Assembly (NCBI GenBank): GCA_944332525.1
Contig: CALVKD010000041.1
Span: 1 to 51,241, forward strand
DNA length: 51,241 bases
Direction of reading: 5' to 3'
From: an uncultured Bacilli bacterium
GTDB lineage: Bacteria > Bacillota_I > Bacilli_A > RFN20 > CAG-449
In this document: in pieces, positions 19,946 through 25,216 of the stretch
Layout of the letters: the number at the start of each line of letters is the position of its first letter
How positions within the stretch are numbered: the stretch's first letter is position 1
Notes under the pieces: generated by a model
Databases searched by the model: none
Told to the model about the DNA's origin: nothing
The model's input: only the letters and a program-made list of their open reading frames with translations
Program-made: the position numbers and the translations under genes

Positions 19946-21352
19946 ATGCCAGAATTACCAGAAGTTGAAACTGTGAAAAAAGCTTTATTAAGACATCTCA
20001 AGGGCCGCGAAATCATTTCATGTGATATTCTTTATCCGAAGATGATTAAATCGCCTCTTGAAGAGTTTTCAACATTTTTTAATCATAAAATAATTCAAGA
20101 TATTGAAAGAAAGGGAAAATTTCTTATTTTTATCTTTTCAGATCATGTATTAATATCCCATTTAAGGATGGAAGGAAAATATCTTTACTTTAAAGACAGT
20201 GAACCGAATACTTTGCATGCCAAAGTTGTATTTCATTTAGATAATAATGAAAAAGTCATCTATGATGATGTCAGATGCTTTGGAATAATGGAATTACATA
20301 CATTAGAAGAATATCGCAATAACGAAATACCATGTTTGAAAAAACTTGGACCTGAACCATTTGTCACCGATGAAGATTATCTCTATAAAAAATTTCAAAG
20401 CCGTGACAAAGAAATAAAATCAGTTTTATTAGATCAAGAAATTATGACCGGTTTAGGCAACATCTATGTCGATGAAACTTTATTCAAATCTAAAATTAAT
20501 CCATTTAGAATGGCCTCATCCATTACAAAAGAAGAAACAAGAGATATTATTCAAAATTCTAGAATTATTCTTACTAACGCAATTGAAAAAGGTGGTTCAA
20601 CTGTTTCTAGCTATCACCCTGAAAATGGTGTCGATGGAAAGTTTCAAAACGAATTATTTGTTTACGGTCGTTCTTCTGAGCCTTGCAAAATCTGTCAAAC
20701 AACAATTTTAAAGAAACACTTAGGCGGTCGTGGAACTTCTTATTGTCCAAACTGCCAACACGTTGCTAAGATTATCGGAATATACGGAAAAATCGCTTCA
20801 GGAAAAACTACTGTTTTAAATTATTTAAAAGGTCAAGGTTATAAAGTTTTTTCATGCGATGAATATATTTCTGCCCTTTATAGTTCATCCTTGCCTTTCA
20901 AAAAATTCTTAATAGATACTTTTCATGAAGAAGTTATTAATGATAATGGTAGTATATCTAAAACATATATCAAAGAGATGATAAATCAAAATGAAGAACT
21001 AAAAAAAACTCTGGAAAATTATCTCTATCCAGAAGTAAAGAAAGCTCTTCATGCCTTTGTAAAACAAAATATTAATGAAAAGCTAATTTTCGCGGAAATT
21101 CCCCTTCTTTACGAAGCTCATTTTGAAAAGGAAGTAGACTACGTTCTAGGCATTGATGCCTCATTGATGACCCAAATGAGAAATTTAAATCTTCGCGGGA
21201 GCAAGGATGTAGCCGCAGATATAAAATTAAATCAAACTAATAAATTTGATGAAAATGCTAGCAAGGTAAATTATTTAGTCGCCAACAATGATTCACTTAG
21301 CTATTTATACGCGCAAATCGACAAAGCATTATTATATTTTTCTAAAATCTAA
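19946..21352 (+). CDS. mutM-coaE: Fused formamidopyrimidine-DNA glycosylase / dephospho-CoA kinase
   Basis: One frame of 468 residues encodes two enzymes. Residues 1-272 are MutM (Fpg), which removes 8-oxoguanine and nicks DNA: catalytic Pro2-Glu3 in MPELPEVETV, a lysine in RKGKF (55-59) and a C4 zinc finger with Cys247, Cys250, Cys267 and Cys270. Residues 274-468 are CoaE, which phosphorylates dephospho-CoA in the last step of CoA synthesis: P-loop GKIASGKT at 281-288 and the FSCDEY motif after it. CoaE begins two or three residues after the zinc finger with no linker. mutM and coaE are adjacent separate genes in many Firmicutes, so loss of a stop probably fused them. Strong AGGAG precedes the start. 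Confidence 0.93.
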   Translation: MPELPEVETVKKALLRHLKGREIISCDILYPKMIKSPLEEFSTFFNHKIIQDIERKGKFLIFIFSDHVLISHLRMEGKYLYFKDSEPNTLHAKVVFHLDNNEKVIYDDVRCFGIMELHTLEEYRNNEIPCLKKLGPEPFVTDEDYLYKKFQSRDKEIKSVLLDQEIMTGLGNIYVDETLFKSKINPFRMASSITKEETRDIIQNSRIILTNAIEKGGSTVSSYHPENGVDGKFQNELFVYGRSSEPCKICQTTILKKHLGGRGTSYCPNCQHVAKIIGIYGKIASGKTTVLNYLKGQGYKVFSCDEYISALYSSSLPFKKFLIDTFHEEVINDNGSISKTYIKEMINQNEELKKTLENYLYPEVKKALHAFVKQNINEKLIFAEIPLLYEAHFEKEVDYVLGIDASLMTQMRNLNLRGSKDVAADIKLNQTNKFDENASKVNYLVANNDSLSYLYAQIDKALLYFSKI

Positions 21353-21653
21353 GTCCAATAATAACGCTGCGCCTAACTATTAATTCTCTCTGTTTAGAAA
21401 ATAAAAGATTTATATCTAGTGATAATTCATAATCAAAGATTTCTCCGATTCGCTGTGGATTACCATAATATATAAATTTGTATTTTTTATCATTGATAAA
21501 AGAAAATAATTTCTCACCATATCCATCATCCATTAAAATAGAAGAAATTATCTGGCACTGTGATGCCAGATAATTTTTTTCTGAATTAATTTGAATTAAA
21601 TCACTGCAAAGAAGAATTCCGATTAGTCCAAGAAAGATTAATATTTTTTTCAT
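21342..21653 (-). CDS. Small secreted or anchored protein, last gene of the Tad-like operon
   Basis: A 103-residue protein with one N-terminal hydrophobic segment (MKKILIFLGLIGILLCSDLI), which could be a signal peptide or a pilin-like anchor. The rest has no motif I recognise. It starts directly at the stop of the TadB-like gene and overlaps the 3' end of mutM-coaE by 11 bases. Codons of about residues 27-36 also form the terminator of the opposing operon. Its size and position after a GspF/TadB-like gene suggest a minor pseudopilin or assembly factor, but this is inference. Confidence 0.6.
   Translation of the reverse strand: MKKILIFLGLIGILLCSDLIQINSEKNYLASQCQIISSILMDDGYGEKLFSFINDKKYKFIYYGNPQRIGEIFDYELSLDINLLFSKQRELIVRRSVIIGLRF
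21547..21580 (+). terminator. Terminator of dnaE-polA-mutM/coaE, inside the opposing gene
   Basis: A perfect 11-base-pair stem, ATTATCTGGCA and TGCCAGATAAT around CTGTGA, followed by six more Ts on the plus strand. It lies about 195 bases beyond the mutM-coaE stop, within codons of the 103-residue gene on the other strand. Confidence 0.88.
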
Positions 21654-22739
21654 TTAACCAAGTAAAACCTCCATATATTCTCTTAACAAAATAATCACCT
21701 CAAAAGCTAAAATTAAAGTTAAACAAATTCTAAAAACGCTTGTTATTTCTTTATAATTTTCGCTTATATGTTTTAGTCTCCCTAATAATTCATTAACCGT
21801 TTGATTGTCACTATTTCGAAAATCATTTTTAATGACTAATCGATAAATTAACAGCATACCCTCCTCAAAGTAAGGATACGGGTATTTTTTTATAATTTTG
21901 AGAGTTGGTTGCAAATCCAAATTTTGATATGACGTTTTAAGATTTTCAAACTCATTTATTCCAGCTTTCGTCAAAATATTATTTGCCAGCAAAAACGCAT
22001 TGTATGGTGTTTCTGTCTGCACATAGAATAAAAAGGAAGACAAAAATCTTTTAAAGAGTATTTTTTTAAACAAGTATTTATTATCATTTAACAATAAAAT
22101 TGAAGCTATAAAAACAATTAATGTCATCGCTACCTTTTCAAAGCAGAAAATAATTATAAAAATATGTTTCGTCAATAATAAAGTATATATGTCACTGAAT
22201 AATATAATTATAAAAACAAAAAACAAGGTATTGGCAATTGCTGATTTGATCAAATCGACATATGTATTTATTTTTTGCTGATTCTCGCTTTCTGAAGCAT
22301 ATATATTGCTAATAGTAAGTAATATTTTGAATGAAGAAATAATATCTTTACGATAATTGTCTAAATACAGAAGCTTCTTCATCAAGGTAAATGGAAGATA
22401 AGAAAAATAAGCATCCAATCTGTTAAGTCGGACATCATCACTAGAAAGCTGTTCTATTTCACTAAACATTTTTTTATCTAAATGCTGATAAGCTTCGCAG
22501 AGAGATTCATGAATTCTTTTTCCAGATAATAGTGAGAAATAAACAAACAATATAAATTGATTGCTCTGCATCTCTTTGGAAATTTTTTTATCTTTTTTTT
22601 CGATAATAAGATAGATTATCAGATAACCAATAAACGACAAAATCATTAGCCCGTAACGGATAGCTTCAGGAAAAATAAGAAAAGTGACTACCCCATCAAT
22701 TAGAATTAAAAAGATCAAATAATATTTACATTTCTTCAT
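21654..22739 (-). CDS. TadB/GspF-like membrane protein
   Basis: A 361-residue polytopic membrane protein. The start chosen is ATG at 22737-22739, 14 bases inside the end of the upstream gene; in-frame TTG and ATG codons further upstream overlap it more. Two membrane segments near 5-45, a cytoplasmic helical region (about 50-150), two segments near 165-215, a second helical region (220-330) and a last segment near 335-355. The two helical regions look like a repeat, the layout of type II secretion F / TadB-TadC proteins that form the inner-membrane platform of pilus machines. No secretion ATPase or prepilin peptidase is nearby. The assignment rests on topology and is moderate. Confidence 0.5.
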   Translation of the reverse strand: MKKCKYYLIFLILIDGVVTFLIFPEAIRYGLMILSFIGYLIIYLIIEKKDKKISKEMQSNQFILFVYFSLLSGKRIHESLCEAYQHLDKKMFSEIEQLSSDDVRLNRLDAYFSYLPFTLMKKLLYLDNYRKDIISSFKILLTISNIYASESENQQKINTYVDLIKSAIANTLFFVFIIILFSDIYTLLLTKHIFIIIFCFEKVAMTLIVFIASILLLNDNKYLFKKILFKRFLSSFLFYVQTETPYNAFLLANNILTKAGINEFENLKTSYQNLDLQPTLKIIKKYPYPYFEEGMLLIYRLVIKNDFRNSDNQTVNELLGRLKHISENYKEITSVFRICLTLILAFEVIILLREYMEVLLG

Positions 22740-23073
22740 AATATAACCGGTATTTAATGTTCCTTTCATAAAAATACGAAATGACAATAACTTTTAAATG
22801 TACTTCATTGCAATAAGACACACTTTCAACTCCATTGAGATAATAATTAATATATGTAACAATTTCTTTATAATAGAATTGATTGTCTAGATTATTTTTG
22901 ATTAATTTATGCAATCTGCTTTCAAAAAGATTTCTATTTAAGAACATTTCATTTTCCTTTTGATATAAACTTGATTCATATGCCTCTTTGGAACATTCGT
23001 AAACTAACGATTGCACATCATCTACTTTTAAAGGAACAATCAAAATCATCAAAAAAATTAAAAGATATTTCAT
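22726..23073 (-). CDS. Small secreted protein of the Tad-like operon
   Basis: A 115-residue protein with a hydrophobic N-terminus (MKYLLIFLMILIVPLKVDD) that looks like a signal peptide or single anchor, then a helical, Asn/Tyr/Glu-rich body with two cysteines (Cys27 and a second near 88). No known domain is recognised. Its ATG overlaps the stop of the 292-residue gene (ATGA) and its own end overlaps the TadB-like gene, so translation is coupled along the operon. A pseudopilin-like role is possible but unproven. Confidence 0.55.
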   Translation of the reverse strand: MKYLLIFLMILIVPLKVDDVQSLVYECSKEAYESSLYQKENEMFLNRNLFESRLHKLIKNNLDNQFYYKEIVTYINYYLNGVESVSYCNEVHLKVIVISYFYERNIKYRLYYEEM

Positions 23074-23948
23074 AAAATCGTCACCTTTTTTTGGTAAATT
23101 ATTTCATCAAACCAAGCAGTTATTTCTGTTTTCAGCAAGCTATGCGTAAATTCAAAAGAGACATTAATTTGGAACGAGCAATTATTGTTCATTAAGACTA
23201 TTTTTGCATCTATAAAAGTCTCTTCATAGTTATTTGGAAAATATAAATTTCGCGAACTAACTATATTTTCATAATTATCTGTACACATTTGCATTGTTCC
23301 AATTTTATAATAAAACTCTTCTTTAAATTGCAATAGAAGTCTGTTATCCAACTGAATAGCTTGCAATGGAAATTCATAACCAAATCTAAGATAATCATAA
23401 CCGATTAACTGAAAAATTTCTTTTTCTGAATAAACAAAGAAATATCCATATAAATTTAAATTATCTACGCCTTCTAAGTAAACGATGTCGAGTGTTGACA
23501 AATCTATAAACTTATCAACACTAAAACTATCATTTATGACGTGAATAGCCTGAAGTTTATTATTTTCAATAATATCAATATTTTTTCCAATTAGATAATA
23601 ATCGAGATAGATAGTATTGTTGTATTGATCTAGACTTAAATGATTAATGTCTTTAAGTAATGACATCTGATAAACCATCTTTTCTTTTGTAATTATTTTT
23701 ATGATTATTTCCCCTCCATTTTGTTTTAAATCATTATCATTAAATGTTAAATAGTATCCAGATTCAGAGATAACAGCAGTTTGTTCAGTTTCAGAAAATG
23801 TTATCAAAACTTCGTATTGTTGCTTAGAGAATAATCCTATCTCTGCTGTGTCATTTTTAACAGATAATTTAGCTTGAAATGGAGAATTATAATCGCTTGC
23901 TACCGAAAAAGATGAAAGCAATATAATTGGAATTATTAACTGTTTCAT
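23070..23948 (-). CDS. Secreted protein of unknown function
   Basis: A 292-residue protein with a signal peptide (MKQLIIPIILLSSFSVASDY, cleavage probably near residue 17-19) and then mainly beta-strand-like sequence rich in Tyr, Asn, Ile and Leu, consistent with an extracellular beta-sandwich. No lipobox, LPXTG or membrane anchor at the end. Its start overlaps the stop of the MG284/MPN403-like gene by one base and its stop overlaps the next start. Within the operon it is the largest exported part and could be the surface-exposed or structural subunit. Confidence 0.55.
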   Translation of the reverse strand: MKQLIIPIILLSSFSVASDYNSPFQAKLSVKNDTAEIGLFSKQQYEVLITFSETEQTAVISESGYYLTFNDNDLKQNGGEIIIKIITKEKMVYQMSLLKDINHLSLDQYNNTIYLDYYLIGKNIDIIENNKLQAIHVINDSFSVDKFIDLSTLDIVYLEGVDNLNLYGYFFVYSEKEIFQLIGYDYLRFGYEFPLQAIQLDNRLLLQFKEEFYYKIGTMQMCTDNYENIVSSRNLYFPNNYEETFIDAKIVLMNNNCSFQINVSFEFTHSLLKTEITAWFDEIIYQKKVTIL

Positions 23949-24310
23949 TACATCAGCCGGTAGAAGTTTTTAATCGCTTTATTACGTAATCTATAATAAG
24001 TTGAGCGATTATATTTTTGCATCCACCAAAACTTATCTTCTGGAAAAAAGAATTCTTTCCAAATAATTTCCATCTCTTTTTTATTAAGAGATGCCAAGAC
24101 AAAATTTATTCGGCATAGCTCTCTTTCATCATCAGTTAAGCTTTCTCCCGATGAGAGTTTCCAGAATGTTTTGTAGTCACAACTGGGATCGAAGAGCATA
24201 CCATCCTTGCAATTAGTACCTGCTTTGATTTGCTGGCAGATTAATAACTTATAACGTTGTACTAATAAAATTATCGCGGCTTCCTCTTTTTTTGTATTTT
24301 TTTTGGTCAT
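23948..24310 (-). CDS. MG284/MPN403-like protein with C-terminal helix-turn-helix
   Basis: A 120-residue protein. The ATG at 24308-24310 has a perfect AGGAGG upstream; the frame continues further up but lacks a site. The end, WMQKYNRSTYYRLRNKAIKNFYRLM, resembles the last helices of sigma-like or ArpU-like DNA-binding proteins and of the MG284/MPN403 family known from Mollicutes. A CxxG-CDY region in the middle contains four cysteines. It heads the five-gene operon of secreted and membrane proteins, so it may regulate it. Function is not known for the family. Confidence 0.55.
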   Translation of the reverse strand: MTKKNTKKEEAAIILLVQRYKLLICQQIKAGTNCKDGMLFDPSCDYKTFWKLSSGESLTDDERELCRINFVLASLNKKEMEIIWKEFFFPEDKFWWMQKYNRSTYYRLRNKAIKNFYRLM

Positions 24311-24502
24311 ATTTTTACCTCCTGTTGAATTTATTTTAACCAAATACCCATACATCCACGTTACTTTTGGACTTTTATTTTTTTATCCCAATTAAGTATC
24401 AAAAAATTTCATTTTAATCTCCTATCCTTATCTATTTTACATGAATTATTCAATCTTCCATTAAAGACTTTTAGTTTTATTTATTTAATTTAAAAATAAT
24501 CA

Positions 24503-24514: not shown

Positions 24515-25216
24515 ATGAGTAAGAAGAAATATTTATTTTTATTATCGGCTATATTATTGATTTCGTGCCAAAATAACTCTTGGAATAAGAGTTATCTATC
24601 CTCATCGGCACAATCGGTCGTTCCTATCACAAATCAAAATTTAAGCAAATATTGTTCGATGAATTTATCTTTTATACTTTATGTCGGAAATAATTCTTGC
24701 TCAACCTGCAGTATATATAAACGTAATCTTAATAATTTAATCAAAGAAGAGAATATCCTTGTTTTTCATCTAAATTATTCTGAAAGCGACAATAACTATC
24801 TTTCTATTGAAGACAACCTTTTATTTCCTAAAATAGAAGCAGATGAAGCACCTTGTTTATTCTTTATTTTAAATGGAAACATCAATGAATATTACCCATA
24901 TGATGATAGTTATTTAAACATTAGCAATCTCAGTAACATTATATTTTCTGAAAGAAATTTTGAAAATTATCTTTTAAATGATTTTAACGAAGATGGATCT
25001 TTTATTTCAAAAAAATTATCATTACAAAAAAATAAATATTATTATTTTGACAACTATTCTTCACCTTTATTAAGCCAAGAAGTCAATTCCTATTTGGAAA
25101 CACATAATCTAGCAATAAATTATTACTTTTATCATGAAAAAAGTGAGATTTCTGAAAATCTCACTTTACCATGTTTAATTTATTATGGTGAAACAATTGA
25201 ATATTTAGTAATTTGA
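24515..25216 (+). CDS. Thioredoxin-like lipoprotein
   Basis: A 233-residue lipoprotein. The signal peptide MSKKKYLFLLSAILLISC ends in a lipobox (LISC, Cys18). A thioredoxin-like segment follows, with ILYVGNNSCSTCSIYKRNL carrying a CSTC motif near residues 62-65, the position of CxxC in thioredoxin-fold proteins. A cis-proline-like site may be EADEAPCLFF near 110. It may reduce or isomerise disulfides outside the cell or bind bacteriocin-type substrates, but the oxidoreductase role is inferred only from the motif. It is transcribed alone, converges with the HAD gene with a 12-base overlap, and carries the terminator of that gene in its own codons. Confidence 0.65.
   Translation: MSKKKYLFLLSAILLISCQNNSWNKSYLSSSAQSVVPITNQNLSKYCSMNLSFILYVGNNSCSTCSIYKRNLNNLIKEENILVFHLNYSESDNNYLSIEDNLLFPKIEADEAPCLFFILNGNINEYYPYDDSYLNISNLSNIIFSERNFENYLLNDFNEDGSFISKKLSLQKNKYYYFDNYSSPLLSQEVNSYLETHNLAINYYFYHEKSEISENLTLPCLIYYGETIEYLVI
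25137..25166 (-). terminator. Terminator of the HAD gene, inside the opposing lipoprotein gene
   Basis: On the minus strand AAGTGAGATTT-TCAG-AAATCTCACTT, a perfect 11-base-pair stem, followed by four more Ts. It lies about 40 bases past the HAD stop and inside codons of about residues 208-217 of the plus-strand lipoprotein. Confidence 0.87.

Follow-up and report, generated by a model that had tools for sequence, protein, structure and literature searches.

The window analysed here is a stretch of 51,241 nucleotides from an uncultured gut-dwelling Bacilli bacterium (contig CALVKD010000041.1), in which five open reading frames were confirmed on the minus strand:

23948..24310, minus strand: gene A, MG284/MPN403-like protein of ~120 aa (NF045770)
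23070..23948, minus strand: gene B, exported beta-rich protein of 292 aa (N-terminal hydrophobic segment, match to ancestral B, beta domain)
22726..23073, minus strand: gene C, small protein of 115 aa with one N-terminal transmembrane (TM) segment (match to ancestral C, DUF5411 comparison)
21654..22739, minus strand: gene D, platform-type membrane protein of ~361 aa, a putative TadB-TadC fusion (half-by-half profile matches)
21342..21653, minus strand: gene E, small protein of 103 aa with one N-terminal TM segment (match to ancestral E)

Genes A and B overlap by 1 nt, B and C by 4 nt and C and D by ~14 nt; D abuts E, and the 3' end of E overlaps the convergent mutM-coaE fusion gene by 11 nt. 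For gene A the start at 24310 is preferred over the mechanical ORF start at 24355, since AGGAGG lies just 5' of this ATG, and D is counted from the ATG at 22739, the mechanical ORF beginning at a TTG (22787). Both the tightly overlapping five-gene operon and the start of gene A agree with the original prediction for this locus. Hydrophobic N-terminal segments are found in B, C and E, and D has two large loops between its hydrophobic segments (~125 residues each by hydropathy). Searches of B to E against Pfam and NCBIfam returned sub-threshold noise only and no family. Other features of the region include a terminator-like hairpin of 14 pairs, with a T-rich tail, that lies within gene E (21545-21576, minus strand), the mutM-coaE gene itself (19946-21352, plus strand; one ORF in which a MutM-type glycosylase is fused to a CoaE-type kinase, conserved in the family), and a divergent lipoprotein-like gene with a thioredoxin-type CSTC motif (24515-25216, plus strand), relatives of which occur close to gene A in further genera of the window's family (f1).

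Conservation of the operon in its family

Genes A to E are working genes under purifying selection. The nearest record, retrieved by a search with a narrow gene A alignment, is an uncultured Bacilli MAG (CALVJL010000001.1), and dN/dS between the window and the nearest genome was 0 for A, 0.16 for B, 0.12 for C, 0.18 for D and 0.24 for E; within genus g2 all five genes gave 0.12-0.33. With a polA dN/dS of 0.03, the operon genes evolve faster than polA. An MG284-like gene passed the cut-off in 16 of the 18 f1 genomes, in single copy each, and the five-gene order is kept in all four f1 genera read. D identity within f1 is 14-29% beyond the nearest pair, and the gene order persists though the proteins drop below 20% identity. 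The surroundings of the cassette differ in genus g2. The order kept in four genera, together with the low dN/dS, argues that the operon is not a chance arrangement, and a gene order kept in relatives was one of the two things on which the original prediction had been staked. In three genomes (G010, G013, and G014), B to E are cleanly gone and A is retained beside mutM-coaE with a gap of 13-15 bp or an overlap of 18 bp, a spacing that rules out a contig-end artefact. As B to E are absent together while A stays, gene A is separable and B to E act as a unit.

Counterparts in TadA-bearing operons of sister families

Gene A was used as an anchor across the order and class, and 80 further loci were read. 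In families f2, f4, f6, and f8 the order is A - B - C - TadA/CpaF ATPase - TadB - TadC - E - F, with an exported B of ~330 aa, a C of ~130 aa with one TM segment, a P-loop ATPase of ~350 aa, membrane proteins of ~235 and ~222 aa, an E of ~113 aa and an F of ~60 aa. F is a pilin-like or Flp-like protein with one TM segment (consensus MSEIKGQLLGILLVL). The ATPase of this operon matches T2SSE (82.5 bits), and its alignment with CpaF spans profile positions 9-317. Compared with canonical Tad loci of other families, the two membrane proteins gave 98.0% for TadB and 99.3% for TadC. Loci with TadA, TadB, TadC and an Flp-like protein (L041, L056, and similar loci of f2/f4/f6/f8) occur in ~100 genomes. 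In family f17, one canonical locus encodes DUF5411 (176.9 bits) together with an RcpC/CpaB match that stays below the cut-off, and a prepilin peptidase is present in 22 of the 23 f17 genomes with such a canonical Tad locus.

Profiles of the window family were aligned with f4-type profiles using hhalign, and each position matched its counterpart: A-A 99.7%, B-B 96-98%, C-C 82-90% and E-E 98.4-98.6%, with whole D matching both TadB (80-88%) and TadC (78-89%). Off-diagonal values were close to zero, and with reversed profiles D did not exceed 13%. The N-terminal half of D matched TadB at 76-87% (87 vs. 43 for TadC in a global comparison), and the C-terminal half matched TadC at 77-80% vs. 22-50% for TadB. 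A control drew on seven membrane families of these loci: only two scored against D (64-87), which their position and length mark as TadB and TadC from loci outside training, and none of the remaining five exceeded 0.4. Aligned directly with canonical TadB/TadC profiles D reached at most 6%, so that the link passes through the intermediate f4 proteins. Given these half-by-half preferences and the controls, D is best read, on its sequence, as a fused TadB-TadC platform protein. The HMM-HMM comparison proposed at the outset thus upholds the Tad link and the TadB-like character first ascribed to the membrane protein. The duplicated cytosolic helical domains foreseen for it also recur, both in the two loops and in the AlphaFold model, where a pattern of long helix, four short helices and long helix appears twice (mean pLDDT 68). 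Foldseek with this model, whose confidence is modest, found nothing significant in the PDB or a viral library, and a PDB sequence search with the D, B and A profiles gave no match.

The smaller partners are related to canonical Tad loci to differing degrees. Residues ~135-272 of B are modelled as a beta domain (pLDDT mostly 78-94) with the transglutaminase C-terminal region, complement C3 and Ig domains as Foldseek neighbours in the PDB, none of them significant. B proteins of the order share the hydrophobic N-terminal segment, which is weak in a few, and the description of B as a secreted beta-rich protein holds. No counterpart of B was detected in canonical Tad loci, including in an hhalign comparison with their 240-aa exported protein. 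The pooled C profile matched DUF5411-bearing proteins of canonical Tad loci at 73%, and C is likely related to DUF5411. E gave 2-8% against the canonical small proteins. In size and topology C and E resemble TadE/TadF-type minor pilins, and it is in this sense that E may be termed pseudopilin-like.

The f4-type ATPase is present in 105 of the 146 genomes of the order and in none from f1, f3 or f5. PF00437 (T2SSE) had no match over the cut-off in the window's own genome, so that no orphan TadA-type ATPase emerged there, and among the 18 f1 genomes it was over the cut-off only in the contaminated G015 and as one 28-bit partial match in G008; searching f1 with the A1 (ATPase) profile gave noise and G015 only. 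The G015 matches, which represent two distinct canonical ATPases, were rejected; contamination of this genome stands at 5%. Candidates of ~740 aa in f1 that resemble PriA, and one of 675 aa in the window's own genome with its match in ABC-type sequence, were set aside by eye. Of the 105 ATPase genomes 102 encode F, against 0 of the 41 without the ATPase, as judged with a profile trained on f4 that a very diverged F elsewhere could escape. This profile found no match in f1, and in the window there is no room for F after E because E overlaps the next gene. Joint loss of the ATPase and F is strongly supported. A search for an A24 prepilin peptidase (PF01478) found no match in the window's own genome, and only 6 of the 146 genomes of the order have one over the cut-off; even the ATPase-bearing form therefore works, if at all, without a prepilin peptidase. 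The absences that had been noted within the window thus extend to the whole genome for the secretion ATPase and the peptidase, and to the F-profile search of f1 for a recognisable major pilin. In several f4 genomes (G061, G062, G133, G142, and others of genera g22 and g29) the ATPase matches contain in-frame stops within the aligned part, sometimes TGA, which may reflect decay, a changed code or a C-terminus that ends earlier.

In a PolA tree (single gene, midpoint-rooted), f1 and f5 group together (99/99) and adjoin f4, while f3 falls in a separate clade with the ATPase-bearing f8 and f2. From this placement at least two independent ATPase losses would follow, with the platform, C, E and B retained, a case which is good but not final. 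The platform has also shrunk: TadB and TadC together measure 459 aa in f4 (median) and 412-454 aa in f5, and D measures 267-377 aa in f1 and 295, 142, and 114 aa in three f3 genomes. The cytosolic loops span 132-142 residues in f4 vs. 28-36 in the two shortest f3 platforms, and this shrinkage fits what the loss of a docking partner would leave.

Known filament systems and the possible role of the remnant

A pilin, a peptidase, an ATPase and a platform are described as the core of every type IV filament system (PMC10191384), and the generic model in PMC6668835 comprises an ATPase, a platform and a major pilin. The operon supplies the platform protein in the form of D, as the half-by-half profile matches and their controls indicate. 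The extension ATPase is missing (PF00437 in the own genome, A1 profile in f1), as are the prepilin peptidase (PF01478 in the own genome) and an F-type major pilin (profile search of f1, and the window), a pilin of another type being possible. As three of the four core features are lacking, the operon is not a type IV filament system by this definition; it is a derivative of one. Of the Tad proteins, TadB and TadC are represented by the single fused protein D, which would be a re-fusion, since TadB and TadC are thought to stem from fission of a two-domain platform (PMC10191384). The operon resembles Tad (type IVc) systems in its platform homologous to TadB and TadC, in two small one-TM proteins at pseudopilin-like positions and in the presence of TadA in the same operon of sister families, but it differs in having no ATPase, Flp-like pilin or prepilin peptidase and in the fusion itself. 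The closest described operon is CpaF - PilC/GspF - DUF5411, predicted in Roseburia, Ruminococcus, and Eubacterium (PMC9523054). There, as in canonical Bacilli loci, a DUF5411-type protein lies by CpaF and platform genes, and C looks DUF5411-related; however, that operon keeps its ATPase and the window operon has none. GspF/ComGB of type II secretion and ComG systems resemble D in being one platform protein with two cytosolic domains, although the halves of D match sister TadB and TadC and the window genome has no ComGA-type ATPase or peptidase. A competence set (ComGA/ComGB/ComGC and ComC peptidase) was judged lacking on the absence of ATPase and peptidase, and the earlier suggestion of a competence-like device finds no support.

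We consider it probable that what survives in this operon is the base of a Tad-type (type IVc) filament machine, now a fixed, motorless surface complex. Of the parts of this reading, Tad ancestry is very likely, and we would give the static function even odds. The comparisons show or strongly support an ancestral operon that ran A, B, C, TadA/CpaF ATPase, TadB, TadC, E and finally a short Flp-like F, as well as the joint loss of ATPase and F, the merging of TadB and TadC into D, and the retention of B, C, D and E under selection. D may serve as a membrane hub holding the single-TM proteins C and E, which in turn may present the exported, beta-sandwich-like B on the outer face. Lacking a motor, pilin and peptidase, such a complex would be unable to extend or retract, and a base that has kept its small subunits and an exported domain but has neither motor nor main subunit is consistent with a fixed surface complex, its most likely role being attachment or envelope contact. 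In type IV filaments it is the minor pilins that prime assembly, and the complex could be likened to a pilus tip and its primer minus the pilus. No known filament-building mechanism is possible because the motor, the pilin-like subunit and the peptidase are missing genome-wide. The reduced pilus of the original prediction thus stands as a Tad-derived remnant and falls as a filament builder. Retention of the base by f1, along with the same loss occurring independently in a second lineage, suggests that the base has a function in its own right.

The fast evolution of these genes (D identity of 14-29% within f1) and the clean loss of B to E in G010, G013, and G014 would also suit a decaying relic, with leftover Tad genes functionless and on their way out. 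This is unlikely, however, as all genes are open, B to E are under purifying selection (dN/dS 0.12-0.33), and the genes are kept in all four f1 genera read and, independently, in f3. Still less likely is a functional filament or secretion machine whose motor and pilin are borrowed and encoded elsewhere. Different type IV filament systems can have components in common, prepilin peptidases for instance (PMC6668835), but the own genome has neither a T2SSE match over the cut-off nor an A24 peptidase, f1 offers only the contaminated G015 and the 28-bit partial match in G008, and the platform cytosolic domains are gone in two f3 genomes. A new membrane complex, another early suggestion, would be one unrelated to Tad that resembles it in topology by chance, and B to E indeed belong to no Pfam or NCBIfam family and D and B have no significant structure match. 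It is highly improbable all the same, given that five consecutive positions match an operon with a bona fide TadA while off-diagonal comparisons are close to zero.

Under the preferred reading of a retained Tad base, the lineages form a series of successive absences, beginning with the peptidase, continuing with the motor and pilin-like subunit jointly and ending with the presumed motor-docking domains, while in two independent lineages selection still maintains the platform, small subunits and exported protein. This series makes the role of the base alone testable. The ~100 genomes with the ATPase-bearing form, nearly all of which have no prepilin peptidase, raise a second question.

Gene A and the mycoplasma-type slot

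Gene A matches NCBIfam NF045770 (MPN403_MG284_C) at 67.4 bits (cut-off 37.3), making it a clear member of the MG284/MPN403 family, and may carry a DNA-binding helix near its C-terminus. A literature search on MG284-286 or MPN403 found nothing relevant. Its family and its place at the head of the operon were correctly called, but it is not an inherent part, as it stays after B to E are lost. In f2/f4/f6/f8, A and an ACP gene flank the Tad module in 24 of 30 loci (mostly ~4.4 kb). In genomes where TGA is a sense codon, two uncharacterised genes and then ACP come after the A homologue in 8 of 11 loci (~1.6-1.8 kb; L099, L101-L103, L105, L106, L111, and L112), and A and ACP are immediate neighbours in G025 and two f20 genomes. 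The second gene of this mycoplasma-type pair (C position) has one TM segment and the first (B position) has no export signal. By hhalign the B-position gene did not match B, and the C-position gene reached 10-15% against C (reversed control 0.4%); with the one match nil and the other weak, homology is not claimed. The idea that this pair, at the position of MG285-MG286, is what remains of B and C after loss of the motor, platform, E and F is a tentative one that we hold to be somewhat improbable. If true, motorless Tad-derived surface complexes would extend into minimal bacteria. The MG284/MPN403 family has no Tad tie in other Bacilli families. The MG284-like gene lies just 5' of a ptsI-like gene in f25 (L085, L088, L110, and L116) and just 5' of the ACP gene in f20 (L094 and L095), with no adjoining Tad genes in either case, which points to a role of its own.
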